Below are positions 7,925 to 62,256 of a stretch of DNA of 64,000 bases, piece after piece; the stretch's first letter is position 1; each line of letters starts with the position of its first letter. The translations under genes were made by a program, and so were the position numbers. The notes beneath the pieces were generated by a model. That model had not been told where the DNA came from and did no database searches. It worked only from the letters and a program-made list of their open reading frames with translations. The stretch lies in assembly GCF_021018805.1 (NCBI RefSeq), contig NC_086258.1:12111100-12175099 (forward strand), read 5' to 3'. The stretch is from Prinia subflava (Eukaryota > Chordata > Aves > Passeriformes > Cisticolidae).

Positions 7925-8856
7925 CCCAGGCTGTGGCAGTGACCCTGTCCCCGCTGTGTGCAGTGACCCTGTCCCAGGCTGTGGCAGTGACCCTGTCCCC
8001 GCTGTGGCAGTGACCCTGTCCCCGCTGTGTCCCAGGCTGTGGCAGTGACCCTGTCCCCGCTGTGGCAGTGACCCTGTCCCTGCTGTGTCCCAGGCTGTGT
8101 GCAGTGACCCTGTCCCCGCTGTGTCCCAGGCTGTGTGCAGTGACTCTGTCCCAGGCTGTGGCAGTGACCCTGTCCCCGCTGTGGCAGTGACCCTGTCCCC
8201 GCTGTGTCCCAGGCTGTGGCAGTGACCCTGTCCCGCTGTGGCAGGGACCCTGTCCCCGCTGTGTCCCAGGCTGTGGCAGTGACCCTGTCCCGCTGTGGCA
8301 GTGACCCTGTCCCCGCTGTGGCAGTGACCCTGTCCCCGCTGTGTCCCAGGCTGTGGCAGTGACCCTGTCCCCGCTGTGGCAGTGACCCTGTCCCCGCTGT
8401 GGCAGTGACCCTGTCCCCGCTGTGTCCCAGGCTGTGGCAGTGACCCTGTCCCGCTGTGGCAGTGACCCTGTCCCCGCTGTGTCCCAGGCTGTGGCAGTGA
8501 CCCTGTCCCAGGCTGTGGCAGTGACCCTGTCCCCGCTGTGGCAGTGACCCTGTCCCCGCTGTGGCAGTGACCCTGTCCCCGCTGTGGCAGTGACCCTGTC
8601 CCCGCTGTGGCAGTGACCCTGTCCCCGCTGTGTGCAGTGACCCTGTCCCCGCTGTGGCAGTGACCCTGTCCCGCTGTGTCCCAGGCTGTGGCAGTGACCC
8701 TGTCCCCGCTGTGGCAGTGACCCTGTCCCGCTGTGTCCCAGGCTGTGGCAGTGACCCTGTCCCCGCTGTGGCAGTGACCCTGTCCCCGCTGTGGCAGTGA
8801 CCCTGTCCCCGCTGTGTCCCCGCTGTGGCAGTGACCCTGTCCCCGCTGTGTCCCAG
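7925..8856. repeat. Large minisatellite abutting the exon 4 acceptor
   Basis: About 0.93 kb of tandem units alternating between a 23-bp form, 'cagtgaccctgtccccgctg' plus 'tgg', and a roughly 35-bp form that adds 'tcccaggctgtgg'. Each long unit holds a branch-point-like TGAC, a pyrimidine-rich stretch and 'tcccag|g'. The array ends exactly at the true splice acceptor of exon 4. Minus-strand frames of 370 and 466 codons through it are repeat artefacts. Confidence 0.95.
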
Positions 8857-9015
8857 GCCAGGTACAAGCAGAGCCTGGACCCCACGGTGGACGAGGTGAA
8901 GAAGCTGTGCACGTCGCTGCGCCGCAATGCCAAGGAGGAGCGCGTGCTGTTCCACTACAACGGGCACGGCGTGCCCCGGCCCACGGTCAACGGAGAGATC
9001 TGGGTCTTCAACAAG
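8857..9015 (+). CDS. RPTOR: RPTOR exon 4 (raptor residues 117-169)
   Basis: This exon has 159 nt and 53 codons, phase 0 at both ends, acceptor tcccag|gcc and donor aag|gtgggt. It starts [10 protein letters not shown] and ends EIWVFNK. It belongs to the RNC (raptor N-terminal conserved) domain, which has a caspase-like fold. The motif [12 protein letters not shown] contains His153, at the position of the catalytic His of caspases; raptor is not known to be a protease, and this domain helps bind substrates. The sequence is essentially identical to the human protein as remembered. The acceptor is the final unit of a long minisatellite, and the GTGGGT donor is not a strong match to the GTRAGT consensus. 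Confidence 0.97.
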
Positions 9016-11492
9016 GTGGGTCTGCCTCAGCACAGCCCTGCCAGGCCCTGCAGCTTCTGCTGGGGCAGGGCTGGGTCCTGCAGTCACGGCCTGATTGGGT
9101 TGGAGGGGCCCTGAAGCCCGTGCAGGGCCAGTGCCAGCCCTGCCCATCCCAGGCTGCTCCAGCCCCGGCCAGCCCGGCCTTGGGCACTGCCAGGGATGCA
9201 GGGGCAGCCCCAGCTGCTCTGGGCACCTGTGCCAGGACCTGCCCACCCTCCCAGGGAGGGATTTCTTCCCAGAATGTTCGCTGAGTTTCCCCTCTCAGTC
9301 TGAACCCATTGTCTCATCACTGTCCCAGGTTTAGGATCTGTTCACAGGGTTTAGTTCCCTGTTTGCTTTCTCTGTACACCTGAGGCTGTCCCTGCCCTGG
9401 GGGACACCAGGGGCTCCTCTCCAGTGCTCTGAAGCAATAAATGATTGGCATACAGATGGCAGGGGAACATGGAAACTCGGAATTGCTCCTGCTCTGACTC
9501 CCTGTCCATGTGGACATACCAAGAGAGCATCAAGACAGTCCCTGGAACTGGTTAATGTGGTGTTTGCTGGCCTTTTGCCACATGTTGAGGCTGCAATAAC
9601 ATTTTTCATATATTTATTGTGAGTGCTGCTGTACCAGTAAGGAGTAAAATTCTGGTTTAGCTGCTGTTTCCTGAACAAATCTCAGCATGGCTCTGAAAGG
9701 AGAAAAATCAACATGCCCCAACTTCAGACATGTTTATTCTGACATTTTGAGGAGCTTCTCTACAAATTTTAAATATCTCTGAGCTATTCACTAAACAATT
9801 GAGATGAAATCTGTTCACAGGCAGTTTCCAGTTGAGCTGTTGTTGTGTCATTCCCAGGAGGAGGCACAGAGGGATGGTGGGAGCAGTGTTTGGGCAGGGA
9901 CTTCTGCTCCATGCCCAAGCCAGGGAACAAACAGCGTGTCCAGCCCAGCGTGGCAGCAGCAGAGCTGTACCCTGAGCCACTGAGCTGCAGAGCTGTGCTT
10001 CAGCACCCCTTCCTGCTTCAAACTGCTCATTTACATCTCATTAGCAGAGGGGATGTTTTATGTGACCCCCACAGTAGAGCTGGAACATAAAATTCTTCTC
10101 GTTGGAAATACCACAATATTAATCAGAGCTATAATCTGATCTTAGCTGGAGCAAGATGCACTGGAAATACAAAGGTAAAACAATGCCTGCCCGTAAAATG
10201 GCATTGATGAGATGTGTCAGAGCAGGGTTTTTATGTGGAACTTCCTGGGCTTGGAATGTGCTTCACGAGAGTAGTGACCTTAAGAAAGGCTGTTCGTGCC
10301 TCATTCCACCCTACAGTGATTTGCAGAGCTCCAGCTCCCTAAAACTTTGGCTTTTATCAACAATTTTCCCAATTCATTTGACTGAAACAGCCTAAACTGT
10401 TATAGATGGGCAGAACTGGGTTTGGAAATGCCTCACCCCTGCCTGCCTTATGTAACACATGGTTTATGAGACCTCCTGTCTTTATCAACGCTGATACGTG
10501 TCCTTGAAAATTTGATTTTTGTAAAAAGTTTACTGCTTTTATTACAGCTATTTTAAGTCTCTTGAATTTAAATGAGAGTTATGATCCCATCCATCATCCT
10601 GCTGATGTTAATAGGAACATCACAGCTTTTCCTGAGGATTTTGGGCTGAGCTCAGGGTTGGAGGAACACCAGGTTGCCCTCTGCCTGCAGCTGAGAAGGA
10701 TCTTGCTGGCAGCCACTGGGTATTTGGTGGTGGCTCTGTGCAGGCAGGAATCTGTGGTTTGTATTTTCAGCTGGCTTGGTTCAGGATTGGGTCCTCGGAG
10801 CTGGTTTTAAATGGGTGATTTTTATCCTCTTGCCTCCAGTTATTTGGGGGCGTTCGTTAAGATGGAAGACAAGGAACAAGATCCCTCTTATTTACAGAAA
10901 GGGAACTGTGGGCACTTCACTCTGTTGAAGGCAGCTTTGTTGGTTTTAATTTTAATGGATAATTTGGAAAGTTGCACAGAAGCTAAAGCTGTAATAAAAT
11001 TATGAAGCATCTCGTTAGGCTCAGGCGGGGTAGCGCTGATGGACTGCAGGGGCTTAATTATCCATCCTGATTTATTGATGGGGTTTTCAGTTTAAGATGT
11101 TTGATGTTAAATTAAAGACAGCTGGTTTGCATCCTTTATCAGTGTTGCAGAAATTTGGGATAAAATTGGACTATTAAATGCTGTTTGGAGTTGTTAGCAC
11201 ATATCAGAGCTCTAAATATCTGATACTGAAAACTCTTGGCAAAGTTTTGGGCTTTTTTTTTAGAGTTGGATGTTTCAAATAATGCCACAATAAAATCTGC
11301 TTGTTGCTTGTGTTGACTTGGGCTCACACCCTCATTACTGGTAGATACTGACTGAGATTTGTATTCATTAATATGTTCAACCTAGGTTTTATTCTGGGGT
11401 TTCAGAGTGGGGTTTGGGGGGTGTGTTTTATGACCTGGCCCAGCTCAGGCTCTGCTGTCTGTGGTGACTGCAGTGGTGCTTTCCTCCTGCAG
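9016..11492. other. RPTOR: RPTOR intron 4
   Basis: A degraded CR1 fragment follows the donor by about 65 bp. The rest has no recognisable repeat. The part from about 10480 to 11300 is AT-rich, with several 'ttaatt' and 'attta' motifs, and could hold a conserved non-coding element. No coding sequence is supported. Confidence 0.85.
9082..9275 (-). mobile_element. Degraded CR1 LINE fragment
   Basis: The antisense CR1 order is visible: 'gattgggttggaggggccct', 'cccatcccaggctgctcc', 'cggccttgggcactgcc', 'agggatgcaggggcagcc', and finally 'gggagggatttcttcccaga'. It is more diverged than the 52.4-kb copy. Confidence 0.65.
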
Positions 11493-11639
11493 AACTACAC
11501 CCAGTACATCCCCCTGTCCATCTACGACCTGCAGACGTGGATGGGGAGCCCTTCCATCTTCGTCTACGACTGCTCCAACGCCGGCCTGATCGTCAAGTCC
11601 TTCAAGCAATTTGCACTCCAGAGGGAGCAGGAGCTGGAG
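11493..11639 (+). CDS. RPTOR: RPTOR exon 5 (residues 170-218)
   Basis: This exon has 147 nt and 49 codons, phase 0/0, acceptor ctgcag|aac and donor gag|gtgaga. It runs from [10 protein letters not shown] to REQELE. It completes the pseudo-caspase pair of the RNC domain: VYDCSNAG contains Cys196, at the position of the caspase nucleophile, opposite His153 of exon 4. No change from the human sequence is evident. Confidence 0.97.
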
Positions 11640-13896
11640 GTGAGAGCTCAGGCTGCAGGGCTCTGCTGCCTTTACTCAGCACAAAGGAAGTTTAAGCTTG
11701 CCTTGCTGTATACACTGAAAAATGTGTCTAAAACTGTGTTGGAAAGCAAATTAATTTGCAAATAACTTCGCCACTCTGATCTTTCTGGTTCAGTTTGCTA
11801 TCCCATTAAACTTGGAATGATTTTTAATACAAGCACTAATTAAATGTTAATGTTAATAGAATCAATTTGGGCCCTAATGGTCTTTTCTGCTGAGATGAAT
11901 GCTGAGGTGAACAAGACATCATTATTTTGGTTGCAGAACTCTGGTATCTGGGGCTGGATTTCGATGCAGTTGTGGTTTTGTGCTGTTGAAGTGAATGCAA
12001 AAATACGAGACAGAAAAACCTGATCCACACAGGGATTGTCCTGGTGGTTCCAGTTCTGCAGAGTGTGGAACGTGTTCCCAATGAAAAGCTGTCTTTGGTT
12101 GCAAATGGAATTAATAATAAATTTATTGAAGCAAATTGGAAATGCAAAGTGGAAGGGAAGAAGTTGGAATGTTCTGAGCCTCCCCCTGCTGCCTGTGGCT
12201 CACAGGGAAAGGACATTTGGAAAGGTTCACTTCTTACACTTCCAGGACACTGAATTAGAAACCCCAGGACTTCAGGGAGGAATATGAATTAATCAGGCAA
12301 CTGAGTGTCACAAATACAACCTCCAAACAGGTGTTCAGTGTCCCTGCCTGTCAGTCCTTTCTCTTGGAATTCCAATTTTTGGAGATGCTTTGGTGTGTGG
12401 AAATTCCATTGTACTGAAGCAGACAGTCTGTTAGCCTGGGATATGCAGAACATTTCATTGTTCCTTCTCTTCCATAAAAGAATTCCATATTTTGTTGCAA
12501 TAAGAAACTTCCCTTAGTCTGTGGCTTGGGAAGAACATGAAACTGCCAGACAGGATCAATCAATTGGTAGTGGATGCCTTGTGAAGTCAGAGGAAGGTGG
12601 TCTGAATATCCTTCCCCAAGTTTCCCTGCCAGCCTGGGACTTCCACTGGGATATTTCTGGGGCCTTTCTCCTTTGTTGATACAATGCTCTCTTTCAGCAT
12701 TTTGGTTTTGGTTTCTCATGCTGTTCCCAAGCAGATTGTACAGGTCTGACTTCACCTTCCAATTTTTCCACCAATTCCCACCAATTTTCTCCACCAATTC
12801 CCTTTTCCCCTTGGCTCGTGCTGAGCTCCAGCAGGACCTGAGGCTGCTGAGGGAGGGAGCAGCCCCAGGGGAGCTCTGCTGAGAGGCAGAGCCACTGCTC
12901 AGGGGGAGCTGCTGCAGGAAAACCTCTGCAAGTCTGGCCAAGGGAGAAGGATGAGCACAAGTGATAAAGTCTTTATTTCAACAAACATTCAATCCCATCT
13001 TCTCTGGGGTTCTTCATCTCGTGGAATGTGTGAAGTTACATGGGACAGCTGCTTTGGTGCTGCTGCTCTTGCAGCACAGGTTAACACTACCAGTTAATTT
13101 GGTTGTGAAAATACTTGCAGGGTTATGTGTCAGCTTTTCATTCTGTCCTTAGGTTTCATTAACTCCTGGTGCCTGACTGAAGTTCCCGCTCATGGGGAAT
13201 AAAAAAAAGCAGAGCCTTGCTAACAGAGAGCAGAGCGCTCACAGCGTCATGAGAGCGTGGAGGGGAATTCATTTGGAAAATTATAAATTATCCATTTGTT
13301 CAAATTCATGAAAAGTGAAGCAAAGCTGCAACTGGTGCTCCAGAGGGGCTGCCAGAGTGATCAGGATAATTGTTCCCCATGTCCCTGCAAGGAGATCAGA
13401 GGAGTTTGCTTTTCCCTTAATCTGCCAGAGGGATTCTCACCTTCTGATTCCGTATCTTGCCCTAATGAAAAAAATGCAAAATGTTGGAAAGAAACTTTCA
13501 TGGCTGGATTTTACTTTGTTTACCTGGTTCAGAAAGGTGCTGGGAAGATTGTTCATGTTTTCACTCCCTGAGTTATGAGTCTCAAAGGTCATATTCTTAG
13601 TCAAAATCTTAAACAGCGGAATCCCTGTGCTTTTGGAAAATGGGAATGTTGGTCTTTGGGGCATTTTTACTTTATAGACTGAGCTTTGGTCTACAGGGTG
13701 TTTCTAGACTGACTCTGGGCTTAGCAGTTGAGTGCTGTTAATTAGCCATGAGTTAAATCTCATCTCTAATGAGATGGTGCTGCCACAGCCACCCAGAGCT
13801 CCAGACCCAGAGCTCCAGGGAGCCCTGGCAGCTCCCCCTGGGTTATTTCCTGCCCTTCCCTGACTGCCCCCGGGGGAATTCCCTTGTTCTCTGCAG
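11640..13896. other. RPTOR: RPTOR intron 5
   Basis: No exon or clear transposon is seen. A short 'ccaccaattc' repetition lies near 12770-12810, and a short A tract lies near 13200. Open frames here show no family resemblance. Confidence 0.8.
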
Positions 13897-14118: not shown

Positions 14119-14290
14119 GGGTCTGGAGACTGGACAGGGGGGTTTGGAGACTGGACAGGGGGTCTGGAGACTGGACAGAGGGGTCTGGAGACTGGACAGG
14201 GGGGTTTGGAGACTGGACAGGAGGGTTTGGAGACTGGACAGGGGGGTCTGGAGACTGGACAGAGGGGTCTGGAGACTGGACAGGGGGGTC
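14119..14290. repeat. 21-22-bp G-rich minisatellite after the exon 6 donor
   Basis: There are eight copies of 'ggagactggaca' spaced 20-22 bp apart, separated by G runs of four to six. The array begins 47 bp from the exon 6 donor. The G runs lie on the transcribed-sense strand. Confidence 0.93.
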
Positions 14291-14344
14291 TGGGATCTGT
14301 CCAGGGGGGTCAGTTAGACCCACACAGATCCCAGGAGGGCACTG

Positions 14345-20303: not shown

Positions 20304-20600
20304 GGTGTGACTGGCAGGGGTTTCCTGCATTCCCCAGGTGTGACTGGCAGGGGATTCCTGCATTCCCCAGGTGTGACTGGCAGGGGTTTCCTCTGCCCTC
20401 CCCCAGGTGTGACTGGCAGGGGTTTCCTGCATTCCCCAGGTGTGCTGTGCTGGGGTTTCCTGCATTCCCCAGGTGTGCTGTGCTGGGGTTTCCTGCATTC
20501 CCCAGGTGTGCTGTGCTGGGGTTTCCTGCATTCCCCAGGTGTGCTGTGCTGTGCTGGGGTGTCCCCCCTGCCCTCCCCCAGGTGTGCTGTGCGGGGGTGG
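20304..20600. repeat. 33-bp mid-intron minisatellite
   Basis: About nine copies of a unit joining 'ggtgtgactggcagg' or the variant 'ggtgtgctgtgctgg' to 'ggtttcctgcattcccca'. The period of about 33 bp is a multiple of three, which explains open frames of 342 (plus) and 181 (minus) codons through it. Confidence 0.93.
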
Positions 20601-22771: not shown

Positions 22772-22983
22772 GGGCCGGGCAGGGGTCCCCGAGGATGGGC
22801 AGGGGTCCCCGAGGGTGGGCAGGGATCCCCCAGGGTGGGCAGGGATCCCCCAGGGTGGGCAGGGATTCCCCAGGGTGGGCAGGGATCCCCCAGGGTGGGC
22901 AGGGATTCCCCAGGGTGGGCAGGGATCCCCCAGGGTGGGCAGGGATCCCCCAGGGTGGGCAGGGATCCCCCAGGGTGGGCAGG
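22772..22983. repeat. 20-bp G-rich minisatellite after the exon 9 donor
   Basis: About ten copies of 'gggtgggcagggatccccca', nearly perfect in the second half. The sense strand has repeated GGGTGGGCAGGG runs suited to G-quadruplex formation. The array starts about 16 bp past the splice donor and leads directly into a CR1 tail. Confidence 0.95.
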
Positions 22984-22984
22984 C

Positions 22985-27400: not shown

Positions 27401-28630
27401 CAAATCCTGCAGAGCACTTTGCAGACAGCAATCTCTGCTGAGGGGGTGCACTGATCTCTGGCTTTCATAAATCACTGGTGGGATGCAGCACCTCCCATCC
27501 TGGTTCCCTGCTGCTCCCAAATTTATCTCTTGTTTGTGTGATGGGAGTTCGGGCAGCACATCCCCGTGTGCCCACCCTTCCCTTCCTTTGGGATATTGAA
27601 GCTGTCAATCTGTGCTCCCCCTCCTCCCAGCCATCACTGTCACCAGCACTGTGACAGCGTTTTCCCTTCTCCTCCTCTCCCCACCCTCCAGGGTTTAGTC
27701 CTTTCCCATTCATTTGTGGCTTGGCTTGAATCCTGTAATCATTGTAACACGTGTTTAATGCCATTGTGTGTTCAGCCAGCACAGTGAGTAACCTGTGTGT
27801 AACCTGTGTGTAACCCTGAGGCTCTGAGGAGGGAGCAGCTGTTCCAGTGGCTGGCAGCAGAGGAGTTGTGATCTGTTTGCTCCTGTGGGCTGGGAGGATT
27901 TGTGTTCTCCACAGACAGAGCAGAAGCAGCGGTTTGGGTGGTTTGGGAGGGCTGGGGAATCATTTCAGGGCTGGTTTGGAATGGCTGGAGAAGCATTTGA
28001 AGTATTTGACTTGAGCAGAGTCTCTTCCACAGCTGACATCCACCAGCAGCCCTTGGTTGTGGAGAGCAGGAGGGTTGAGGTTTCGTGTTGGTGGATTTGT
28101 TTTGGAAGGCTGAGAGGGCTGGCAGAGGTTTGAATGGTTTGGGTAACGCTGACTGTGTGGCTCCAGTGTTTCCAACAGCCTGTTTTCAGAAGCGTCAAAA
28201 AGAGATTTCATTTTAATCTACTCAAATCTCTTTTTAAATTTTTTGTTTGTTCTTTCTGATAACACTTAAACCCTTTGAGATCTGACCTCGCAGGGCTGCT
28301 TTGGGCATTTTTGTAGCAGTATTAGTGCTGCTTACCTAAAATTACAGTGACGAGTTCAGCATCTTCTCCGTGTGCTGCTGCAGTGAGAGACCCACAGAAT
28401 CCTTTTGTGGGCAGCCCAAATCAGAGCAGTTGTCTCTAATCTCTAAACCATTCTCCTCCTGAGCACTAAAAGGTACCTCAAGAGCCCTGTGGGCTGGCAT
28501 TCTCCAGTGCTGCAGAAAATTTCTTTAGGTGTTTTCCCCCTTCTCATTGAGAACAGGGAATGTCGAGCACTGTCAGCCAGTCAGGCATTGCTGTCCACAT
28601 TGGCTGGTCAGAGTTTCAGTTTCCCTGGCT

Positions 28631-28768
28631 ATTCCTTATGGATAATGTGTAATTCCTTATTCCTTATGGACAATGTGTAATTCCTTATTCCTCATGGATA
28701 ACATGTAATTCCTTATTCCTCATGGATAATGTGTAATTCCTTATTCCTCATGGATAACGTGTAATGCC
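28631..28768. repeat. 28-bp AT-rich array before the exon 10 acceptor
   Basis: Five copies of a 28-bp unit with the core 'attccttattcctcatgg' followed by 'ataatgtgta'. It ends about 28 bp before exon 10, so the branch point and part of the pyrimidine tract lie at its edge. Unlike the other arrays, this one is AT-rich. Confidence 0.93.
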
Positions 28769-28796
28769 TTCTCTTCCCTCTCTGCCCTTCCTGCAG

Positions 28797-31003: not shown

Positions 31004-31035
31004 GTCAGTCCTGGGGCTGCCGTGGGTCCTGCCGG

Positions 31036-31206
31036 TGCCAGGGGGGTCCCTGTCCATGCCAGGGGTGTCCCTGCCTCTCCCTGCCCATGCCAGGGGGGTC
31101 CCTGTCCATGCCAGGGGTGTCCCTGTCCATGCCAGGGGTGTCCCTGCCCGTGCCAGGGGTGTCCCTGCCCGTGCCAGGGGTGTCCCTGCCTCTCCCTGCC
31201 CATGCC
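31036..31206. repeat. 21-bp minisatellite after the exon 11 donor
   Basis: About eight units of 'gccaggggtgtccctgcc' with variable tails ('cgt', 'cat', 'tctccct'). Frames of 118-193 minus-strand codons across it are artefacts of a period divisible by three. Confidence 0.92.
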
Positions 31207-33519: not shown

Positions 33520-33779
33520 GTGTCCCCTCCCTGTGCCCTGCAGCCCCAGGCTGTGCTTCCCTGACCCCTCCCTGTGCCCTGCAGCCCAGGCTGTGTTTCC
33601 CTGACCCCTCCTGTGCCCTGCAGCCCCGGCTGTGTTTCCCTGACCCCTCCTGTGCCCTGCAGCCCAGGCTGTGTTTCCCTGACCCCTCCTGTGCCCTGCA
33701 GCCCAGGCTGTGTTTCCCTGACCCCTCCTGTGCCCTGCGGCCCCGGCTGTGTTTCCCTGACCCCTGCTCTGCCCTGCAG
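33520..33779. repeat. 39-bp array of 3'-splice-site-like units ending at exon 12
   Basis: Six to seven copies of a 39-bp unit. Each holds CTGAC (a canonical branch-point match), a pyrimidine tract 'ccctcctgtgccc' and 'tgcag', so each copy resembles a complete acceptor. The last 'ctgccctgcag' is the true exon 12 acceptor. The penultimate copy reads 'tgccctgcgg' at 33731-33740, so its AG is lost. Confidence 0.95.
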
Positions 33780-33863
33780 GTGCTGCTGAGCCAGGTGCAC
33801 CGGCTGCGAGCTCTGGATCTGCTGGGGAGGTTCCTGGACCTGGGGCCCTGGGCTGTCAGTCTG
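33780..33863 (+). CDS. RPTOR: RPTOR exon 12 (residues 439-466)
   Basis: This exon has 84 nt and 28 codons, phase 0/0, acceptor ctgcag|gtg and donor ctg|gtgcgt. It encodes [16 protein letters not shown] and [12 protein letters not shown], a solenoid segment identical to human as far as I recall. It is a small exon lying between two minisatellites, one abutting upstream and one 47 bp downstream. The frame upstream of its acceptor is open through several array units, so use of an upstream copy would add 13-residue blocks without a frameshift. Confidence 0.97.
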
Positions 33864-35079
33864 GTGCGTGGGAGCTGCACGGGGGCTGCACCACTGCCCT
33901 GCCCCGCAGCAGGGGTGGTGAATGCAGGGGTGGTGGATGCAGGGGTGGTGAATGCAGGGGTGGTGAATGCAGGGGTGGTGGATGCAGGGGTGGTGAATGC
34001 AGGGGTGGTGAATGCAGGGGTGGTGGATGCAGGGGTGGTGAATGCAGGGGTGGTGAATGCAGGGGTGGTGAATGCAGGGGTGGTGAATGCAGGGGTGGTG
34101 AATGCAGGGGTGGTGGATGCAGGGGTGGTGGATGCAGGGGTGGTGAATGCAGGGGAGCTCCAGGGGAGGGAGGTGGGATGCACAGATGTGACATGGCCGT
34201 GTCTGTGTGCGGGTGTGGGACATGCAGCGAGTGTCCCTGCAGAGCAGGGGCTGTGTCCATCACAGCCATTCCCGTGCTCCTTTCCAGTACAGCAGAGGGG
34301 AGTTCCCTGGGAGCAGCTAAGTGTAAAATAATGTAAGGGAATAACCAGGAGGAAATATCTGGGGCAGGTAAGAAGGTTTGCCTTACAAAATAAATAGCTA
34401 AAAACAGCATATGCATTTATTATGTGTTCTTTCAGCTTACTGGCTGCATCATTTTCTTCTCTCCCTTTATCTGTTTGGTGTCTGGATTTTACAAGCTCTT
34501 CTGAGCAGGCACGAGCTGCATTCTGCAGTTTGGAAAGTGGCAGCACAGTGTGGAACACAATTTAGAATTAAACAGAGGAGTAGTTTAAAGCACTCCCGTA
34601 AATGGAGCTGTTTGTTGATAAAAGTGATGAAGATGAAGCACCAGCTGGTGGTGGAGCAGCTCAGTGTGGGACTTTCCAGTGGTTTGCTTTACCTGCTCCT
34701 GGAGAGACCTGTTCATTTCCAGGGGAAGGCTGGAACTCCTGAACTCTGTGGCGTGTTTAGCTGGGAGAGCCAACAGCCCCAGCTGAGGGAAGTGAGGATA
34801 TGGAGCATAAACCAGCCCAGGCTGTGAGGAGAGAGAGTGGTGCAGGATTAACTCAGAGTCTCCATGGGCCAAAGGGGTCTGGAAATACCTGGTGACATTC
34901 AGGATTAAAATGGGCAATAAAACACACAGGGATCCCCTTTTTACTGGGAATTATTTCCTACCAGATTTCCCAGCTGTGTGTGTAAAGATGCTGCATCCTG
35001 GGCCCTGCTGCGGGCTGAGCTGCCATGGGGGGTTTCCTCCCAGGGTTTTACTGACAGGGATTTGTTCTCTCCCTCCCAG
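33864..35079. other. RPTOR: RPTOR intron 12
   Basis: A 15-bp array occupies the first 300 bp. The rest is unique intron sequence with no recognised element. Confidence 0.85.
33911..34155. repeat. 15-bp minisatellite after the exon 12 donor
   Basis: About sixteen copies of 'ggtggtgaatgcagg' or the variant 'ggtggtggatgcagg', almost perfectly periodic. The 15-bp period gives 302- and 449-codon minus-strand frames of repeated TTPAF or HHPCI, which are not genes. Confidence 0.96.
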
Positions 35080-39497: not shown

Positions 39498-40853
39498 GTA
39501 GCCGGGGTGGGGACACGGGTGTGAGCCAGCAGGAGCCAGCAGGAGCCACCAGGAGCCCACCAGGAGCAGTTCACTGTCTGCAGTACAAACCCAGTTGTAG
39601 ATTCAAGGCCCACGTGGGCACACACTGCTGGGCTGGCTGAGCTCACAGAGACTGGCACAGCTCTGGCAAGGCATCACTGTGCCTCCTTTATCTAGGTTTG
39701 GCATTCCTGGTAGTGAGTTTCTCAGGCTCTTCTCTTCCCATATTTAGCCCTGTTTTTCTCAGTAACCTTGACGAATTTCTGAGGGCTCTAATAACAAAAC
39801 TGCAGGTGGTTTGATGAGATCACTCACAAGCAGTTTGGCTGGTGCATCAGAATGGCCTGCACAGATGCATTGCTACAGGCTGGGCTGTGCTCAGCCCTGC
39901 TCTGGGCTCCCACAGCTGCCCTGAGCCTGCCCAGGGAGTTTGTGCAGAGAATGTGAGAGCTCTGCTCACTGGAAAGGTCTCCCTGCCCTTAGAGCCCCAG
40001 AGCAGCTCTCCAGGATTGGGAGAGTTACAGTTTCTGATGCACCATCGTACATCAATAGTGCATTAGATGGTTTTTGACATTCTGGATTGTTTTTGAGGGC
40101 TGTTCTGAAGTGTCCTAATGTTTGTGTTTACTTGACTGGAACATCAACACCCTGGCAGTTGTCACCGGCGTGGCAAAGATTCATTTCTGTTGTCTCGTTC
40201 CAGCATTTAATCAGTTTAATTCAAGAGAGAGCTGCGTGTCACACTGACTGCTCTGTGAGATTCATAAATCTCTCCTTGGGAGATCAGTCCCTGAGCAGAG
40301 GCAGCAGCCAAAGCCAGCTCTGTCTGCTGTTCCCAGGGGCCAGAGGTGTCTCTGGAGGGGCTGAGTTCTGTGCAGGGCTGGGCAGTGCCAGGAGGGTCCG
40401 GCTGTGCCACGGGGGGCTGAGAACCCCCAGCCCTGGCACGGCCCCTGTCTCTGAGGCAGCCACACACATCCCAGGGGCTGGGCCAGGCCAGGGCTGCCTG
40501 GGACAGGACATCAGCCTGGCAAACTTGGGCAGAGTCAGCAGAGCACCCCTGGGTGGTTTGGGTTGGAAGGGACCCTAAAGCTCATCCTGTTCCAGCCCCT
40601 GCTGTCCATGGGACACCTCCCACCAGAGCAGGCTGCTCCAAAGGGAGGAAGCCTGTCCGGGTAGAAAAGGCTCGTGAGGAATTAAGTGTGAGACAGGGTC
40701 CTCTGGCTTTCTGCAGTTCAGCCCTTGAATTAAGGAAGAATTCTCACCCTGGATGGCCCCCCAGTAACACCAACAATGTTTGTCAGTGTTTGCCTTCAGT
40801 CCCTTGTTTCTCACCTGTGTAACCATGAGATGTTTCTCGTGCTCTTTCCCCAG
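39498..40853. other. RPTOR: RPTOR intron 17
   Basis: A CR1 fragment lies near 40.6 kb. The rest is unique sequence. Confidence 0.85.
40545..40645 (-). mobile_element. CR1 LINE 3'-end fragment
   Basis: Antisense CR1: 'ggtttgggttggaagggacc', 'ctaaagctcatcctgttcca', 'gggacacctcccaccagagc' and 'aggctgctccaaa'. Well preserved but short. Confidence 0.8.
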
Positions 40854-42960: not shown

Positions 42961-44067
42961 GTGAGCACAGCCCCTCCTGCCCTGGGTCCTGGCTCCAGCA
43001 GTTCTCTCCCTGTTGTGCGTGGCTGGGTCACCCCAGTGGAGGGATGGGAGTGGGAGCTGTTGGCTCCAGTTCTGAGCTTCACTGCAATCCTGTTAGGAAC
43101 TCGGGCACAAAAATGTGGGGGCCACAACAGCTTTGCTTTAAACTACCTGAGGCTTTTTAAACAGTCTGAGCCATTTTGGCACCACATCACAGGCACCATG
43201 CAGAAGGACCTGGCTTTTGGAATGGCCTCCTTCCAGGGAAAGCAGCATGCACAGGGAAGTGCTGGGGGAAGTCTCTCGATTTCCTCTGTAATCAGTAAAT
43301 GGGCCCATATTTTCACAAATCAGGGCAGAGAGAGCAACTCAGGGAGAAATCACCTGGGTGATAGAACTGCCTTGACCAAAGAAACATTTTCTCTGCTCTG
43401 TTTTCTAGGAGAATTAATGGTGATTTGGCTCTCTCGAGTTGAAAGATTCAAGGATTGTAATTACTGAGCCCCTGTGGCAGTTTAAAATCATGAGTTCATT
43501 AGGAACTTGATCAGTTAATTTGCTTTTGATTATCAGTAATGACATTGGATCTTCTGAAGCATGGCAGGGATGTTAGGAAATTCTCTCCATCTTGAGCTAG
43601 GACTTGAGTTTTCCCGTTCCCACTGGTGTCTGCTTGATGGCTGGTGTGTGTCTCACAAGAGCTGTGCAGCACAGCTGGAAAAGGCTCTGGAGAGGAGCTG
43701 GAGGTGGTGAGGGGAGCCTTGGAAAGAGAGAGCAGCTCTCCAAGGCATCCCTCATTCCTGTTCCATCAAAGAGCTCAGACCCAGCTGGAAACGCAGAGCT
43801 TAGAGAAGTGTTTAAAATTCATGACTCGCACAGAATCCCATTACCTCCCCATTTGCCTGCTGCAAGCCAGGCTTTTCTCATTCCTTCTGAAGCCTCCCCA
43901 TCCTGCAGCCCTGTCTGCTGCTCCCCGAGGAGAGGAGCCACAGCCCCAGCCACCCCCACAGCTCTGCAGCCCGGGCTGACCCCGTTCCTCCGTGTCCTGA
44001 CGTGCCCTGGGCTGCTGCAGGGGAGCTGGGGGAGCCCAGGGGGCAGAGACTTGAGACTGAGGGAATG

Positions 44068-44094
44068 CTCTGCTCTGCTCTGCTCTGCTCTGTC
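44068..44094. repeat. CTCTG pentanucleotide microsatellite
   Basis: Five uninterrupted copies of 'ctctg'. Confidence 0.9.
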
Positions 44095-44455: not shown

Positions 44456-45433
44456 GATGCTCAGGTCTTTGTTCCTCTCTGGCAGTTTCAGGAACTTGGT
44501 GTGTGAGAGATTGTTCTGGATCAGCCTCTGACTGGCACCATACAATGTACTTCTTCCCAAAAACTTGAGGAGAACCTCTCCATTCCTCCTTGTCCCATTT
44601 TACAAACAGTTCCTCAGCTACCTGTGGGCCAAATGTCCCCGTTATGGCTCCCCAAATGCAGCAGACACGCTCTCAGCGAGCTCGGTGTTCTCTGGCAGCT
44701 GCTCCTTGGCCACACAGGCCAGTACCAGGAGAGACATTTATTTCTGGCCCAGTTTTCCAGCTGGCAAGAGGCAGTTTGTGGTTAGTCAACAAAGACATCA
44801 TTTTGGAGGGGAAGCTGAGCCTTGCTGCTTTTCCATACAGCCACTCATTAATCTTGGTGTCCTGGAAATGTTCAGTTTCAAGATAGGAAAAGGGATGGAA
44901 TTAAGATGGGGGTTTGCATACCTCGAGGCAGATTATTCATATCCAAACTGCACGATGAAAGCCTTTGTCCTACAGAGAGCTTCGCTGGAAAGATTATCTT
45001 AAGGAGTGATCAAAGAAGGAGGAAAATAAATCTTGGAGCAATGAAATGCTGGGGAATTGTTGTGTTTTCCAGCAGGAGAGGCTGGGGGTGGAGAACTCTT
45101 TGCCATTTCCTAGGATCTGCCTCAGAGGTTGCTGCAGTGAGGGTGAGGAGAGCAGAGGTGGAGGTGGACAGTGAGGTGCAGGAGAGAGTCTGGGGGCAGG
45201 GGAGCCTCCTGCTCCCCTGTGTTAATGCACTGAGATAAAGGAGCTGGCAGCCAGCAGCGCTGGTGCCTGGGGCAGGCACAGCACCAAACCCCAGGGGTTT
45301 GCGTGGGGGTTGGCAGTGGGAATGTGCTGCTCACAGGGGATGTGTCCCCAGCGGTGACACCAGCTCTGGACAGGGACACCTGCTCTGAGACACCTCCCTC
45401 TAGTGAGCTGTGCTGGGGCTTGTGTGGAAGCAC

Positions 45434-46280
45434 GGGGAGCTCCAGCTGTGTCGGGGAGCTCCAGCTGTGCCAGGGAGCCCCAGCTGTGCCGGGGAGCTCC
45501 AGCTGTGCCAGGAGGCTCCAGCTGTGCCAGGGAGCTCCAGCTGTGCCGGGCTGTGCCAGGGAGCTCCAGCTGTGCCAGGAGGCTCCAGCTGTACCAGGGA
45601 GCCCCAGCTGTGCCAGGGAGCTCCAGCTGTGCCAGGAGGCTCCAGCTGTACCAGGGAGCCCCAGCTGTGCCAGGGAGCTCCAGCTGTGCCGGGGAGCCCC
45701 AGCTGTGCCGGGGAGCCCCAGCTGTGCCGGGGAGCTCCAGCTGTGCCGGGGAGCTCCAGCTGTACCAGGGAGCCCCAGCTGTGCCGGGGAGCTCCAGCTG
45801 TGCCGGGGAGCTCCAGCTGTGCCGGGGAGCCCCAGCTGTGCCGGGGAGCTCCAGCTGTGCCGGGGAGCTCCAGCTGTACCAGGGAGCCCCAGCTGTGCCG
45901 GGGAGCTCCAGCTGTGCCGGGGAGCCCCAGCTGTGCCAGGGAGCCCCAGCTGTGTCGGGGAGCCCCAGCTGTGCCAAGGAGCCCCAGCTGTGCCGGGGAG
46001 CTCCAGCTGTGCCGGGGAGCTCCAGCTGTACCAGGGAGCCCCAGCTGTGCCGGGGAGCTCCAGCTGTGCCGGGGAGCTCCAGCTGTGCCGGGGAGCTCCA
46101 GCTGTGCCGGGGAGCTCCAGCTGTGCCGGGGAGCTCCAGCTGTGCCGGGGAGCCCCAGCTGTGCCGGGGAGCTCCAGCTGTGCCGGGGAGCTCCAGCTGT
46201 ACCAGGGAGCCCCAGCTGTGCCGGGGAGCTCCAGCTGTGCCGGGGAGCTCCAGCTGTGCCAGGGAGCTCCAGCTGTGCCC
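45434..46280. repeat. 19-bp minisatellite, about 45 copies
   Basis: The unit is 'gagctccagctgtgccggg' with a 'gagcccc' or 'ccagg' variant. A 19-bp period shifts the frame by one each copy, and the unit lacks a stop in any phase. All six frames are therefore nearly open, giving spurious frames of 298-501 codons on both strands. No protein should be called from it. Confidence 0.97.
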
Positions 46281-51718: not shown

Positions 51719-52162
51719 GTGGGCTGCCAGGCTGCCTTCCTGCAGGGATCTGGGCTGCCCAGGCTGCCTTCCTGCAGGGATCTGGGCTGCCCAGATGTGC
51801 AGCCTTCCTGCAGGGATCTGGGCTGCCCAGGCTGCAGCCTTCCTGCAGGGATCTGGGCTGCCAGGCTGCCTTCCTGCAGGGATCTGGGCTGCCAGGCTGC
51901 CTCCCTGCAGGGATCTGGGCTGCCAGGCTGCAGCCTTCCTGCAGGGATCTGGGCTGCCCAGATGTGCAGCCTTCCTGCAGGGATCTGGGCTGCCAGGCTG
52001 CCTTCCTGCAGGGATCTGGGCTGCCCTGGCAGCCTTCCTGCAGGGATCTGGGCTGCCCAGATGTGCAGCCTTCCTGCAGGGATCTGGGCTGCCCAGATGT
52101 GCAGCCTTCCTGCAGGGATCTGGGCTGCCCAGGGGTGCAGCCTTCCTGCAGGGATCTGGGCT
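51719..52162. repeat. Minisatellite with repeated 'ttcctgcag|g'
   Basis: About fourteen units of 26-37 bp sharing 'ccttcctgcagggatctggg' and then 'ctgcc' with optional 'cagatgtgcag'. Every unit has a good acceptor-like 'ttcctgcag|g', but the array is about 1 kb from exon 22. Open frames of 166-297 codons through it are artefacts. Confidence 0.95.
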
Positions 52163-52446
52163 GGGTTGTTCCCTGGGCTCGTCAGGCACTGCTGAGCCTC
52201 ACCCAGGCTGCGGCTGCCTTGGGATTTATGTTTATGATGCAGGTGGGAATGGTGCAGTTCTCCTTCCCGGCCTGAGCCTTGGAAAACGCCCAGACCTGCT
52301 TTATGTGAGCACCAAAACAAACAGCAGGGACCCAGGGCTCAGTGTTGGCCTCTAGAGACTTCCTGAAATCAAAGTTTTGAGAGGGAACTTTGCTTCAGCC
52401 CAGGTTGCTTTGTCCAGGTGTTTTTAACAGAAGGCTTGAGGCAGAG

Positions 52447-55026: not shown

Positions 55027-55105
55027 TGGGGCGGTGTGGGTGTCCCTGGGGGTGTCCTGGGGGTGTCCCTGGGGTGTCCCCGGGGTGTCCCTGCCCTGCA
55101 GGGTG
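55027..55105. repeat. Short 'gggtgtccctg' array before exon 24
   Basis: Six or seven units of 11-15 bp with the core 'gggtgtccc'. It ends about 20 bp from the exon 24 acceptor. Confidence 0.85.
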
Positions 55106-58200: not shown

Positions 58201-59538
58201 CAGGGAGAGCTGGATTTACCTCTGGAGCTTGTGCCCGGTGCCCCCTGCTCCCCCTGGCACCCACTGCCACGGGGGGAGAGAGAGACCCAGGGCAGGGAGG
58301 GAGAGCTCTGCTGGGGGGTTCAGCTGCTCCCTGCTCCCTGGCTGGGACAGCCTTTACCTGCGTGTTCTGACTCTGCCCTGGTGGTCCAAGGCCTCTTCCC
58401 TGGCCTTTCTTTAATTTATTCCCAGAGAAGCTGGATTTTCATTAAGGTGTAGGTGTTATCTCTCCCCTCTCAAATTCCTTTGATGTATTTTAGGTGAGGT
58501 TTGTTTATTGCTTTTCATTAGGGGTCGTTTGTCATTGCCTATCTAATAGGTGTTGTGCTGAAATAAAGTGCTTTTTTCTTTGCCAGGAGGAAAGGTGGAG
58601 GGTGGGCTTCTTATTTATTTATTTTACAGGAGCAGAAGTCCAAGTCAGTAACAGCTGTTTTCTAAAGGATAACGTGGTTGGAAGGCAGTGTTTGTAATAG
58701 TGACAGATGATTTAAGGACTTTCTCATTCAGGGAAAACAGGGTTTGTTTGTGGGAATTTGTCTTCCTTCTCCAAGGGTAACTCCTTTGGAATAACCAGCA
58801 TGAAAGGAAGCTGGATCAGGACCCTGTAGCTCAGCTCCTTCATTGGTCCAAGGGTGGTTCTGGAGCAGGGGAGCCTTGGGTAATTGCTTAAATATGAAGA
58901 ACACCCCATACATAGCTCCTGCCATGGTTTGGGGTGAGATCTTGTGAGTTTATTCCTTCTGAGCCTGTGTTCTGGATGAGGGTGGGCGTGCCCATGGTGG
59001 GAGCAGCACTGGGGCTGCCCTGGCCTCGTGCCTGGAGCACAGCTTTTGTAGGGGAGCCCTGGAGTGCTGAAACCTGGCCTGTGGGTGTGAATAAATACCA
59101 TCAAATGGCTCAGAGTGCTTGTGACTGCAGGGCACTCTCCAGTTTTGGAGGGAATTCTGTGTGTGATCAAAGCCAGGTGGCACAGGGGCACCAGAGCAGG
59201 GAACCAGAACAGGGCTGTTCCTGGTGAATGGGGTGGGAACCTGAACATCCCAGGGATTTGGGAGTGTAGCCATGCCCTGCTCGGCCAGCAGCCCCTGATT
59301 AGCAGGAAGAGAAGGAATTCAGTGTGTTCTGAGCTGGCTGCAGCAGGGCTGTGCTCCCTCTTTGATCCCGGGGTTGCTATGTGAGGCTTCCCAGCCGAGG
59401 AGAGTTAAGAGAGAAATCAGTGCTGTGCTGAGATCACGCCTGCAGTGCTCAGAGGGGACAGGCACGGGCACTGTGGCATCCCTCAGCAAACTCTGCCCTG
59501 TGGGGTCACTGTCTGTGTGTGTGTTCCTGTCCTGGCAG
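55237..59538. other. RPTOR: RPTOR intron 24
   Basis: A 4.3-kb intron with few repeats: a direct repeat of 'aattcccagaatgttttag' near 56110-56155 and an AT-rich block at 57580-57850. A 286-codon minus-strand frame (56825-57685) has no family resemblance and no splice or promoter context, so I do not call it. Confidence 0.8.
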
Positions 59539-59644
59539 ATCCCCGAGGAGCACGACCTGGAGAGCCAAATCCGCAAGGAGCGCGAGTGGCGCTTCCTGCG
59601 CAACGCCCGCGTCAGGAAACAGGCGCAGAAGATCATCCAGAAGG
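59539..59644 (+). CDS. RPTOR: RPTOR exon 25 (human residues 974-1009)
   Basis: This exon has 106 nt, phase 0 start (ggcag|atc), ending with the first base of Gly1009 (aagg|gtgaga). It encodes IPEEHDLESQIRKEREW and RFLRNARVRKQAQKIIQK, a strongly charged helix leading into the WD40 propeller. RNARVRKQAQKI differs at a few positions from human RNSRVRRQAQQV; all changes are conservative for a helix. Confidence 0.96.
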
Positions 59645-61897
59645 GTGAGAGCTTCCCCTGCCCAGGCTGCCTGTAACCCAATCAGCCGTGTCCCAATTAG
59701 TGATGGCCCCGTGCAGCCCCTGGTGCCTGTTCCCTGCTGCTGCTGCAGGTGCTGCCCTGCTGCTCCCCCACTCTGCTCTCAGCTTTGAGGCACTCGGGTT
59801 CTGCTCTGAGGGGTGAAGGGGGATGCTGAAGGGTTAAATCCAGAGCTGCAGGCTCAGGCTTTGATGTGGGACAGACCATGGAGCTGCTGGACCTGTGTCC
59901 CCAGCCCGGGACACTCCTCAGGGATGTCTCTCACGTTCCCTGCTCTGCTGGCCTCTGTACGTGGTTGTTTACTCCTTGTATCCCACTTTATTTGGAATAT
60001 TTGTACATGTGCTCTGTGCTCTCCCAAGGTGCCTCAGGTCCCTGCTGTGTCAGCAGGAGCTCCCAGGAACCTGGGAATCTTTAGGGCTCTCTGAGGCAGC
60101 TTTGGGCTGGAATTCTCTCAGCACAGGAATTTATTCCAATAAAGTGGAACCTAATGAAGCTTCCTGAGGAATTTGCATTCCTCAGTTTTTCCCTGCTATG
60201 TGCCCTGAGCAGCAGAGGCTGGGCAGCCACAGTTCCAGGAGCTCCTGGTGTCCTGCCCGAGGCAGGGAGGCCTTTGGAGGCACACAGGGCTGGCAGTCCC
60301 AGGGTGCTCAGGAAAAGTGCCCAGGGCTCAGCCCTGTCACCCGAGGCTGCTCCTGTGAGTGAGCCTGGAGCTTCGTGCCAGGAAACTGCAGAATATCATC
60401 AACCAGAGAAACAGAAATGATCCTGCAGCCCAGGAGATGGCCTGGGAGATCTGATGGAATACAAACAAGGGGATTTTTCATGCTTGCCTGGAGAAGTTAA
60501 ATCTCTTTCGAGACAGTGTTCATATTTGGTGGCCTGACCTGAGTGACTGAAATGCCACTATTCATTAAAAAAATCATGATAACGTGAAATATTAAAAAGA
60601 ATTAAAGCAGACTTACAAGCTTTTAATGAAAATTAGATTCAGTGGATGCATCCTAAAACAAACTGGGCTGAATGGATGTCTCCTGGGTTTAGGGGTTTGT
60701 GTGATGAATTCAGAGAGTGCCAAACCCCAGCAGTGTCAGGGGTCCCAACACTGCTTGTGAATAGCAAACTGCTCTGAGGACAGGATGGGAGAAGTCTTTA
60801 GCCATCATTTTAAGGTCTCTGTGGAAAATGAATTTTTCATTTGCAAATTAACCTAAAATTTCAGGGAACTGAAATGGAAGGTTAAATAAATAATCCACAA
60901 GCTACAGTGAAAAGCTGTATTTTAAATTGAAAAAAAAAAAAAGGCATTTTCATATTTTATATTTTGAAGAAATAGTGTTGGCTTTTCCCTCAACATGATC
61001 TGACATTTCCCTGGGTTTGGCTGGGCTTGTTCTCTTTGCTTGCCAGTGTGAAGGATGAGGGATTTGTCACCACAGTTCTTGGTTTGTACCTCAAGACCTG
61101 AGACAGCTGCAGTGGGGTCTGAGAATCTTAAAATTTAAAGAAATTTGAATCAGCAGGAAGTGAGACTTCAAGTACAGTTTTATCTTTCCTCACAAATGAA
61201 TTATCTTTGATTACCTGTCAAAATACTTGTGAAAGCAATATGACCTACTTTGATTTAAAAAGGAATTTAGCTGCATTTTTCATTTGACAAGGAAACAAAT
61301 ATATTTTAATATAAATTATCAGCAAAGCAGAGATTTTCTTCTTCTGACACTTATGTGGTTTCTTTGGTTTTACTGCAAGAAGATTGTGATGGTTACTGCT
61401 GCATACATGTAGAAAGATGAACACTGCCTTGCAGTGAGAGAGTGATGGCTGATTAGTAACATTTTAATCAAAAAGTCTGCAAAATGAGCTGGGCACCAGC
61501 TCAGTGCTGGGATGCTGAGGAGCTGGAGGTGTGCTGAGCACAGGTTGTTAGCTTGGAGTGGGAAAGCTGAGGAGGAAGAGGAAAGGCACCCACAGTGTGG
61601 CTGACACTGCACACGAGCCTGTGTTTGATACTGGTAACTCAGCCAAGAGGCCACTGAAATTAGAAAATGTTAATATTCTTAAAACTCTTGGAAGGAGGGA
61701 AGGGCTGGGGGTGTCCTGGTGAGAGCTGGGGCAGGGGTGACCTGTGGCCCTGGGAAGCTGGGGCTGCCCTGGGGACACTCCCAGGTGTGAGCTGAGCTGG
61801 CTGCTGTCCCCAGGGACACTCCCAGGTGTGAGCTGAGCTGGCTGCTGTCCCCAGAGACACTCCCAGGTGTGAGCTGAGCTGGCTGCTGTCCCCACAG
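59645..61897. other. RPTOR: RPTOR intron 25
   Basis: An AT-rich non-repetitive island spans about 60530-61400, with an A tract near 60929. A 41-bp triplicate ends at the exon 26 acceptor. No exon or transposon is recognised. Confidence 0.85.
61773..61897. repeat. 41-bp triplicate ending at the exon 26 acceptor
   Basis: Three tandem copies begin at 61773, 61814 and 61855. Each has 'actcccaggtgtgagctgag' and ends 'ctggctgctgtccccag'. The third carries a CA insertion, giving 'ccccacag', the true acceptor. The first two copies end with intact AG and are potential decoy acceptors; use of either would shift the frame. Confidence 0.96.
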
Positions 61898-62012
61898 GCA
61901 TTTCCAGGCTGGACGATCAGATCTTCCTCAACAGGAACCCGGGCGTGCCCTCTGTGGTGAAGTTCCACCCCTTCACCCCCTGCATCGCCGTGGCCGACAA
62001 GGACAGCATCTG
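61898..62012 (+). CDS. RPTOR: RPTOR exon 26 (human residues 1009-1047), WD40 start
   Basis: This exon has 115 nt, from the last two bases of Gly1009 (cacag|gc) to the first two of Cys1047 (atctg|gtgagg). It encodes ISRLDDQIFLNRNPGV, PSVVKFHPFTPCIAVA and DKDSI, the first strands of the C-terminal WD40 propeller. Reading straight through the donor gives TGG TGA, a false Trp followed by stop. The exon end lies inside the first copy of a six-copy 41-bp array. Confidence 0.97.
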
Positions 62013-62256
62013 GTGAGGGCTGGGGACCCAGGGCACAGCAGGGACAGCATCTGGTGAGGGCTGGGGACCCAGGGCACAGCAGGGACAGCATCTGGTGAGG
62101 GCTGGGGACCCAGGGCACAGCAGGGACAGCATCTGGTGAGGGCTGGGGACCCAGGGCACAGCAGGGACAGCATCTGGTGAGGGCTGGGGACCCAGGGCAC
62201 AGCAGGGACAGCATCTGGTGAGGGCTGGGGACCCGGGGCACAGCAGGGACAGCTGG
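62001..62256. repeat. 41-bp array duplicating the exon 26 splice donor six times
   Basis: Six tandem copies start at 62001, 62042, 62083, 62124, 62165 and 62206, with a partial at 62247. Each begins 'ggacagcatctggtgagg', the last 12 exon bases plus the donor. Copies are nearly identical, with one a-to-g change in the sixth. Potential donors lie after 62012, 62053, 62094, 62135, 62176 and 62217. Any but the first adds an immediate in-frame TGA. Confidence 0.98.

Follow-up and report, generated by a model that had tools for sequence, protein, structure and literature searches.

In sequence stuttering, repeats expand locally within avian introns and may copy the ends of exons together with their splice sites (Hron et al. 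2026, PMC12954441). In chicken, 190 of the 236 introns affected by exon stuttering are on dot chromosomes, and the copied exon parts measure 20–187 bp, according to the accessible part of that paper. In humans, tandem repeats at exon–intron boundaries within segmental duplications change splicing or create introns (PMC2812944), CBS 844_845ins68, a duplicated intron/exon junction, is tolerated with one copy in use (PMC2630376), and the length of a VNTR in intron 18 of ABCA7 goes with skipping of the neighbouring exon (PMC6660495).

We analysed tandem arrays in a 64-kb stretch of Prinia subflava DNA (the window; GC content 52.5%). The gene carrying these arrays looks like bird RPTOR: exons 4–28 were read through with GT-AG introns, and the spliced frame is colinear with human RPTOR (residues 1–1007 of 1008 against 5h64_B 117–1124, 2245 bits). 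We take RPTOR to be on chicken chromosome 18, which is not a dot chromosome. Searches with a partial RPTOR protein (576 aa) against two collections not meant for vertebrates gave no matches in viral_contigs and seven stretches fitting a pattern in genome_contigs, none of which encodes a relative.

Among described phenomena, the arrays most closely resemble sequence stuttering, which was reported from the dot chromosomes of chicken, in that RPTOR carries TRF-detectable tandem expansions of tens of bases in its introns (PMC12954441). As in the human segmental duplications, minisatellite units are present at exon–intron boundaries; the human cases concern primate paralogs that arose by recent duplication and whose transcripts are altered, while RPTOR is a conserved gene with an intact frame, analysed here at the DNA level (PMC2812944). 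CBS 844_845ins68 is one 68-bp duplication at one exon, whereas RPTOR has arrays at or near eleven intron ends (PMC2630376). The ABCA7 VNTR is likewise an intronic minisatellite, but it is one locus with a human disease association and, as far as the available text describes it, without the gene-wide clustering seen in RPTOR (PMC6660495).

Array positions relative to splice sites

Using TRF, we identified 29 merged tandem arrays in the window, two rows with a period below 7 having been left out before merging (one of them, 44066–44092, is a separate array). Arrays were present in 15 of 25 introns, with a median intron coverage of 3.3%. All ten arrays that the original prediction had placed at named splice sites were found, and one at the exon 17 donor was added (Table 1). 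The predicted periods (15, 20, 21–22, 23/35, 28, 39 and 41 bp) were confirmed, with 11–12 bp (exon 24) and 10 bp (exon 17) in addition.

Table 1. Coordinates in the window of three RPTOR exons and of the eleven arrays at or near splice sites
Feature	Relation to splice site	Position	Strand	Basis
RPTOR exon 4		8857..9015	+	read-through frame, human RPTOR alignment
RPTOR exon 12	arrays on both sides	33780..33863	+	read-through frame, human RPTOR alignment
RPTOR exon 26	arrays on both sides	61898..62012	+	read-through frame, human RPTOR alignment
Exon 4 acceptor array	before acceptor, edge 2 bp into exon	7922..8858	+	TRF
Exon 6 donor array, 21 bp, G-rich	start 46 bp past donor	14119..14311	+	TRF
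Exon 9 donor array, 20 bp, G-rich	start 20 bp past donor	22777..22983	+	TRF
Exon 10 acceptor array, 28 bp, AT-rich	end 26 bp before exon	28630..28770	+	TRF
Exon 11 donor array, 21/42 bp, not G-skewed	start 20 bp past donor	31024..31190	+	TRF
Exon 12 acceptor array, 39 bp	end exactly at acceptor (0 bp)	33524..33779	+	TRF
Exon 12 donor array, 15 bp, G-rich	start 45 bp past donor	33909..34155	+	TRF
Exon 17 donor array, 10 bp	start 25 bp past donor	39523..39567	+	TRF
Exon 24 acceptor array, 11–12 bp, G-rich	end 32 bp before exon	55038..55093	+	TRF
Exon 26 acceptor array, 41 bp	at acceptor, edge 11 bp into exon	61772..61908	+	TRF
Exon 26 donor array, 41 bp	over donor, starts 12 bp into exon	62001..62253	+	TRF

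The arrays were closer to splice sites than random placement allows, as had been proposed: 11 of the 29 merged arrays were located within 50 bp of a splice site, compared with 1.29 expected (P = 2.2e-8) under a seed-based null, in which each array was collapsed and one unit per array was placed randomly in introns. Under this null, six donor-side arrays (0.63 expected, P = 3e-5) and five acceptor-side arrays (0.66 expected, P = 5e-4) were within this distance, as were 8 of the 12 arrays scoring at least 200 (0.54 expected). The excess was observed at both donors and acceptors with every score threshold tried (50, 80, 100 and 200). Four of the 29 arrays touch the splice site itself; without them, 7 of 25 remained near splice sites (1.11 expected, P = 8e-5). 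When whole arrays were placed anywhere, exons included, boundary overlap was close to chance (4 versus 2.8 expected, P = 0.3). The excess lies in proximity to splice sites, not in straddling.

It is very unlikely that this pattern is only the usual abundance of minisatellites in a GC-rich avian gene, spotted in hindsight. Certain small chicken chromosomes do carry many minisatellites (16, 21–23, 25–28 and two linkage groups, although 18 is not listed in the accessible part of PMC4992247), straddling by itself does not exceed chance when placement is unconstrained, and the pattern was picked by a reader from one gene in one window. However, the P value of approximately 2e-8 survives a generous correction for choice, and GC-matched and seed-based nulls gave similar results, with P values that already strain such a reading.

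Weak arrays (score 30–50) behaved differently from strong ones, with 5 of 40 near splice sites versus 1.66 expected; at this lower cut-off, 2 of 71 arrays were wholly inside exons and were left out. Since weak arrays are little biased and strong arrays strongly, the bias therefore concerns how arrays grow or are retained more than how they arise, so that selection may play a part. One form of retention would be that near-exon arrays last longer because large deletions removing them also strike the exon. Enrichment that grows with array size and early duplications that are not raised near splice sites would fit this, but most exon-adjacent units are closely alike and not evidently old, and a deletion shield could hardly yield an excess of about eightfold or more confined to 50 bp, so that we consider it highly improbable.

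Exons 12 and 26 are flanked by arrays on both sides, a count little above the 1.25 expected by chance from 5 + 6 hits among 24 exons (calculated by hand), and we do not treat them as special.

Splice signals and composition of the arrays

On the acceptor side, the exon 4 array is composed of mixed units of 22–24 and 34–36 bp with a higher period of 57 bp. It contains 15 TCCCAGGC strings, counting the real site, and its last copy is the real 3′ splice site, TGTCCCAG/GC. Ten decoy acceptors in this array scored 8.6–9.0, compared with 8.6 for the real one; all splice scores here are based on approximate consensus frequencies and are rough. In the exon 12 array, CTGAC-pyrimidine-CTGC(A/G)G modules occur six times. 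Number six is the real site and number five has lost its AG, which leaves five intact modules, the real one among them. The exon 26 array has three CTGAG...CCCCAG-type modules, of which the last (CCCCACAG) is the real site; the copies fall below the score cut-off used for acceptors. Branch points in these arrays were named by motif only. Arrays before acceptors had been predicted to supply mostly pyrimidine tracts and AG, and three of the five did so, those of exons 4 and 12 on their scores and that of exon 26 on its motif alone; the exon 10 unit (0.60 pyrimidine) is AT-rich and without AG, and the exon 24 unit is G-rich.

The 39-bp exon 12 unit corresponds to 13 codons, and the frame is open across the exon-proximal units, but 13 codons are open by chance about half the time (hand estimate) and we do not regard this as a signal. 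That the module adjoining the real exon 12 site no longer has its AG may reflect selection against a competitor; one of five is no evidence for this. Copying of exon sequence at the exon 26 acceptor was rejected, as the similarity between the unit and the exon start was not significant (P = 0.47).

On the donor side, GC skew in the six arrays was 0.58, 0.26, −0.02, 0.78, 0.0 and 0.29. The prediction of mostly G-rich arrays after donors was accurate for four of them and failed for the two with skews of −0.02 and 0.0. Pyrimidine content was 0.37, compared with 0.54 in the 18 interior arrays (P = 0.006) and 0.51 in array-free donor flanks (P = 0.012). The array at the exon 26 donor repeats the last 12 exon bases plus GTGAGG six times, the first being the real site, so that five extra exact copies of the 12 exon bases with a donor follow it. 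The second donor, if used, would lead to an immediate stop. Among the six donor-side arrays, only this one contains strong donor copies.

Sense-strand G-quadruplex-like patterns were detected in the donor arrays of exons 9, 12 and 26. R-loops or G-quadruplexes could form on G-rich sense strands past donors, stalling replication and setting off expansion, a version of local expansion with a named trigger. With a GC skew of at least 0.26 in four of six donor arrays, and with G-quadruplexes proposed for stuttering (PMC12954441), this trigger is conceivable, but we judge it quite unlikely: acceptor-side arrays are about as enriched (5 versus 0.66) and are not G-skewed as a group, the donor–acceptor difference in skew gave P = 0.08, and the same patterns occur in the acceptor arrays of exon 24 (sense strand) and exon 12 (opposite strand), as well as in one interior array on the sense strand and one on the opposite strand.

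The units had been described as unrelated and of independent origin, which is mostly correct. However, 8 of 136 unit pairs (17 of the 29 units compared) were similar at P ≤ 0.01, compared with 1.4 expected, so that the units share short GC-rich words. For most near arrays, the best TRF rows matched at 85–99% (83% for exon 4; 76% for part of the exon 11 array), and such high identity would point to fairly recent growth; interior arrays were alike to near arrays in match percentages.

Candidate causes of the excess

Introns are GC-richer just past donors (0.68 at 7–20 bp and 0.62 at 21–50 bp, arrays left out), yet the excess persisted under flanking-GC-matched placement (10 of 20 arrays near splice sites versus 1.04 expected), and composition was rejected as the cause. 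Unit-GC-matched placement gave expectations of 1.08 (20-array set) and 0.88 (16-array set); the 29-array set yielded no value, probably owing to an AT-only array for which there was no match. Attraction of arrays to splice-like sequence was also rejected, since the 18 interior arrays showed no excess near splice-like decoys at 50 or 100 bp (1 versus 1.16 and 2 versus 1.81 expected). Likewise, incipient duplications were not raised at other splice sites: outside arrays, short-range self-similarity at array-free intron ends was not elevated, with none within 200 bp at two higher cut-offs. Intron length was not related to the presence of arrays (P = 0.35). Exon GC was 0.63 versus 0.58 (P = 0.05), so that a small effect of exon GC is possible.

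Array-bearing splice sites were neither weaker nor stronger than others (donors, P = 0.64; acceptors, P = 0.79; rough scores), and compensation for weak sites was rejected. The absence of such a relation gives no sign that arrays are kept for splicing. If they were, donor-side G-runs would act as intronic enhancers, and branch point, pyrimidine and AG modules would reinforce acceptors. The low pyrimidine content of donor-side arrays, the acceptor modules inside the exon 4, 12 and 26 acceptor arrays and the stronger bias of large arrays are in line with this role; however, G skew is absent from two of the six donor arrays, an acceptor module is missing from two of the five acceptor arrays, copied sites are competitors, as the stop after the second exon 26 donor illustrates, and the samples comprise only six and five arrays. 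We therefore find splicing aid a doubtful explanation, and selection for splicing is not supported as the cause of the arrays. The suggestion that survival of an array depends on its keeping splicing signals likewise does not fit, given that 18 of 29 arrays, including the highest-scoring one, are more than 50 bp from any splice site and that five of six donor arrays are without strong donor copies.

Probable local expansion of intron-end sequence

The RPTOR arrays probably arose independently by local tandem expansion of sequence at intron ends, as in sequence stuttering, and they resemble a lately described form of avian repeat instability rather than a new regulatory device. A unit of approximately 10–60 bp at or near a splice junction would be duplicated and would then multiply via slippage, repair or meiotic conversion. 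Because the exon cannot be disrupted, surplus copies would accumulate within the intron, leaving the copy nearest the exon as the working site. If the initial unit covered the junction, every copy would carry a splice site; the spliceosome would then pass over the copied sites and use the copy next to the exon, and arrays would be tolerated because one working site remains.

Local expansion is supported by the excess at both types of site, unexplained by GC, by the interior arrays without splice-like neighbours and by the exon 26 donor copies, in which an exon edge and its donor are copied into the intron while the exon stays intact, as in exon stuttering (PMC12954441). CBS 844_845ins68 offers a human precedent for a tolerated junction copy (PMC2630376). 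Against it, a duplication hot spot should leave early stages, and self-similarity is not raised at array-free ends; the idea that expansions start at intron ends accordingly fits better than the survival reading, although early duplications are not commoner there. In addition, exon stuttering is concentrated on dot chromosomes, while the window has a GC content of 52.5%, and the exon part copied in RPTOR is 12 bp at most, below the published range (PMC12954441). The published exon-stuttering screen (at least 20 nt, 42.1 bits), applied to proximal introns on the plus strand only, gave no RPTOR match; the best proximal exon matches (12 nt, 24.3 bits) equalled the best in shuffled introns. The other three touching arrays showed no significant match to the exon start.

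The original prediction knew of no such description for RPTOR, and none was found in the open PMC texts searched, although events of this kind were described in 2026 (PMC12954441). The main text of that paper, whose list of 115 genes is supplementary, does not mention RPTOR, and its accessible part does not deal with how near purely intronic arrays are to splice sites.

A broader possibility, to which we attach only tentative weight, is that working splice junctions promote minisatellite growth in this genome via transcription, chromatin or splicing. Intron ends of many genes would then be repeat nurseries, some repeats would become tandem splice modules, and the 39-bp units at exon 12 would add in-frame 13-residue blocks as the copy number changes. 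If the intron-end excess holds over other genes, it shows where avian minisatellites grow and offers a way to study the mechanism behind sequence stuttering, possibly away from dot chromosomes, which are hard to sequence; should RPTOR be only one such gene among many, it would serve as a clear illustration of a newly described phenomenon. The six exon 26 donors with the same core and the five intact exon 12 acceptor modules form natural tandem series of splice sites for the study of site choice.

Clustering of tandem arrays at RPTOR splice sites

The exons of RPTOR were first located with an approximate protein query, and their boundaries were then set by spliced alignment, giving 25 exons, 24 intervening GT-AG introns and a single open frame of 1008 aa in the window. 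Exon numbers 4 to 28 presuppose three upstream exons, and the last exon was extended to the window end, which is not a placed donor. Residues 117–1124 of human RPTOR (5h64_B) aligned with window residues 1–1007 in a single stretch (2245 bits), and the introns were compact.

The TRF output of 50 rows, minus two rows of period <7, was merged into 29 arrays with a score of at least 50. Eleven of these had a splice site no more than 50 bp away, compared with 1.25–1.48 expected when whole arrays were randomly placed within introns. Because arrays grow from a small unit, we used a seed-based null, in which one unit per array was placed in introns only, with arrays collapsed; the expectation was 1.29 (P = 2.2e-8), or 0.63 for donors alone (6 observed) and 0.66 for acceptors alone (5 observed). 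Under this null, 6 arrays were observed within 20 bp (0.53 expected) and 12 within 100 bp (2.56 expected), and removal of the four site-touching arrays left 7 of 25 near (1.11 expected). All ten sites named in the original prediction were thus recovered within 50 bp, with the exon 17 donor added, and the arrays lay closer to splice sites than under either random placement. The excess rose with array score: 5/40 near (1.66 expected) in the weakest class (30–50), 1/9 (0.37) at 50–80, 2/8 (0.34) at 80–200 and 8/12 (0.54) at ≥200. All counts derive from a single sequence of a single gene in one species. Boundary overlap was not in excess (4 arrays vs 2.8 by chance, P = 0.3, whole arrays placed anywhere, exons included), indicating that nearness to a splice site is remarkable, whereas touching the site itself is not.

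The GC content of array-free intron was higher directly 3′ of donors, and that of array-bearing exons was slightly higher (0.63 vs 0.58, P = 0.05). Flanking GC did not account for the excess: positions matched for it gave 1.39 against 11/29 for the full set (P = 3e-8) and 1.04 against 10/20 for scores ≥80 (P = 1e-8). Intron sequences scoring like real sites in a rough matrix of consensus frequencies (69 donor-like, 109 acceptor-like) served as decoys. Of the 18 interior arrays, those farther than 50 bp from a splice site, 1 lay within 50 bp of a donor-like decoy (1.16 expected) and 2 within 50 bp of an acceptor-like decoy (1.81 expected); real junctions, rather than splice-like letters, therefore seem to matter. 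Short-range self-similarity outside arrays showed no rise near splice sites; a simple hot spot at which duplications first arise is thereby disfavoured, though with little power.

Arrays over and beside splice sites

Four arrays touched a splice site: the acceptors of exons 4, 12 and 26 and the donor of exon 26. The 41-bp unit over the exon 26 donor takes in the final 12 bases of the exon together with the GTGAGG donor, a string present in six exact copies, the first being the real site. As the copies are identical in core, the choice must come from context; by reading-frame check, use of the second donor would lead to an immediate stop. At the exon 12 acceptor, a CTGAC-pyrimidine-CTGC(A/G)G module occurs in six copies of 39–40 bp, the last flush with the exon; the AG is lost in the fifth, and the sixth is the real site. 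A 39-bp unit corresponds to 13 codons, and the units nearest the exon keep the frame open, so splicing to a module farther upstream would insert 13-residue blocks in frame. At the exon 4 acceptor, TCCCAGGC occurs 15 times with the real site last, and ten upstream acceptors equal it in score (rough consensus matrix). The exon 26 acceptor has three modules, counting the real site. The two arrays flanking exon 26 share their period and show weak unit similarity (P about 0.01, uncorrected for 136 pairs), probably by chance.

The seven other near arrays exclude the site itself: five start 20–46 bp 3′ of donors (exons 6, 9, 11, 12 and 17) and two stop 26–32 bp 5′ of acceptors (exons 10 and 24).

Asymmetry and likely origin of the arrays

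The pyrimidine fraction of donor-side arrays was 0.37, compared with 0.54 in interior arrays (P = 0.006), 0.51 in array-free donor flanks (P = 0.012) and 0.59 in acceptor arrays (P = 0.017); the corresponding P values for GC skew were 0.04, 0.03 and 0.08. Acceptor arrays did not differ from interior arrays in pyrimidine (P = 0.31) or GC skew (P = 0.77). Given several tests on sets of 6 and 5 arrays, the asymmetry can be called suggestive only. The predicted contrast between G-rich arrays after donors and pyrimidine-supplying arrays before acceptors was partly borne out, in four of six donor-side arrays and three of five acceptor arrays. The accompanying proposal, that arrays survive only where splicing signals are kept, did not fit, with 18 of 29 arrays farther than 50 bp from any splice site. 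Splice-site strength (rough consensus matrix) gave no support to selection for arrays as a splicing aid.

Hron et al. (2026; PMC12954441) describe sequence stuttering, in which introns on chicken dot chromosomes expand locally, with some cases copying an exon edge plus donor or acceptor; length varies strongly between birds, and the mechanism is given there as unknown. The RPTOR arrays share the anatomy described in that source, and we therefore read them as independent local intron-end expansions. The exon part (12 nt, 24.3 bits) falls below the exon-stuttering threshold published there (≥20 nt and 42.1 bits), so we call the arrays a variant of sequence stuttering, alike in anatomy but below the detection threshold. 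Most likely, independent local expansions would begin at intron ends, proceed away from the exon, and be tolerated because the exon-proximal copy functions. The human CBS 844_845ins68, reported as one tolerated duplicated junction (PMC2630376), offers a single-duplication precedent for such tolerance, and an ABCA7 intron VNTR is reported as a case where repeat length can vary with splicing (PMC6660495).

Interior arrays

In intron 7, seven CC(C/T)CAGGTGTG strings follow pyrimidine-rich stretches, setting acceptor-like and donor-like sites back to back; 7 donors and 6 acceptors exceeded the cut-off (rough consensus matrix). Since no exon separates the acceptor-like and donor-like halves, the arrangement resembles recursive splice sites. 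Other interior arrays are listed below.

Features of the RPTOR window, with positions in nucleotides
Position	Location	Feature
	Acceptors of exons 4, 10, 12, 24, 26	Near arrays (n = 5), ≤50 bp
	Donors of exons 6, 9, 11, 12, 17, 26	Near arrays (n = 6), ≤50 bp
4190–4300		Putative CR1-like fragment, resembling the terminus of an avian element
20304–20551	Intron 7	Interior array, 33-bp unit
45433–46279	Intron 20	Top-scoring array, 19-bp unit x45, >2.4 kb from nearest exon
51734–52163	Intron 21	36-bp array, unit includes acceptor-like CCTTCCTGCAG, next exon 975 bp away
61772–61908	Flanking exon 26	41-bp period
62001–62253	Flanking exon 26	41-bp period
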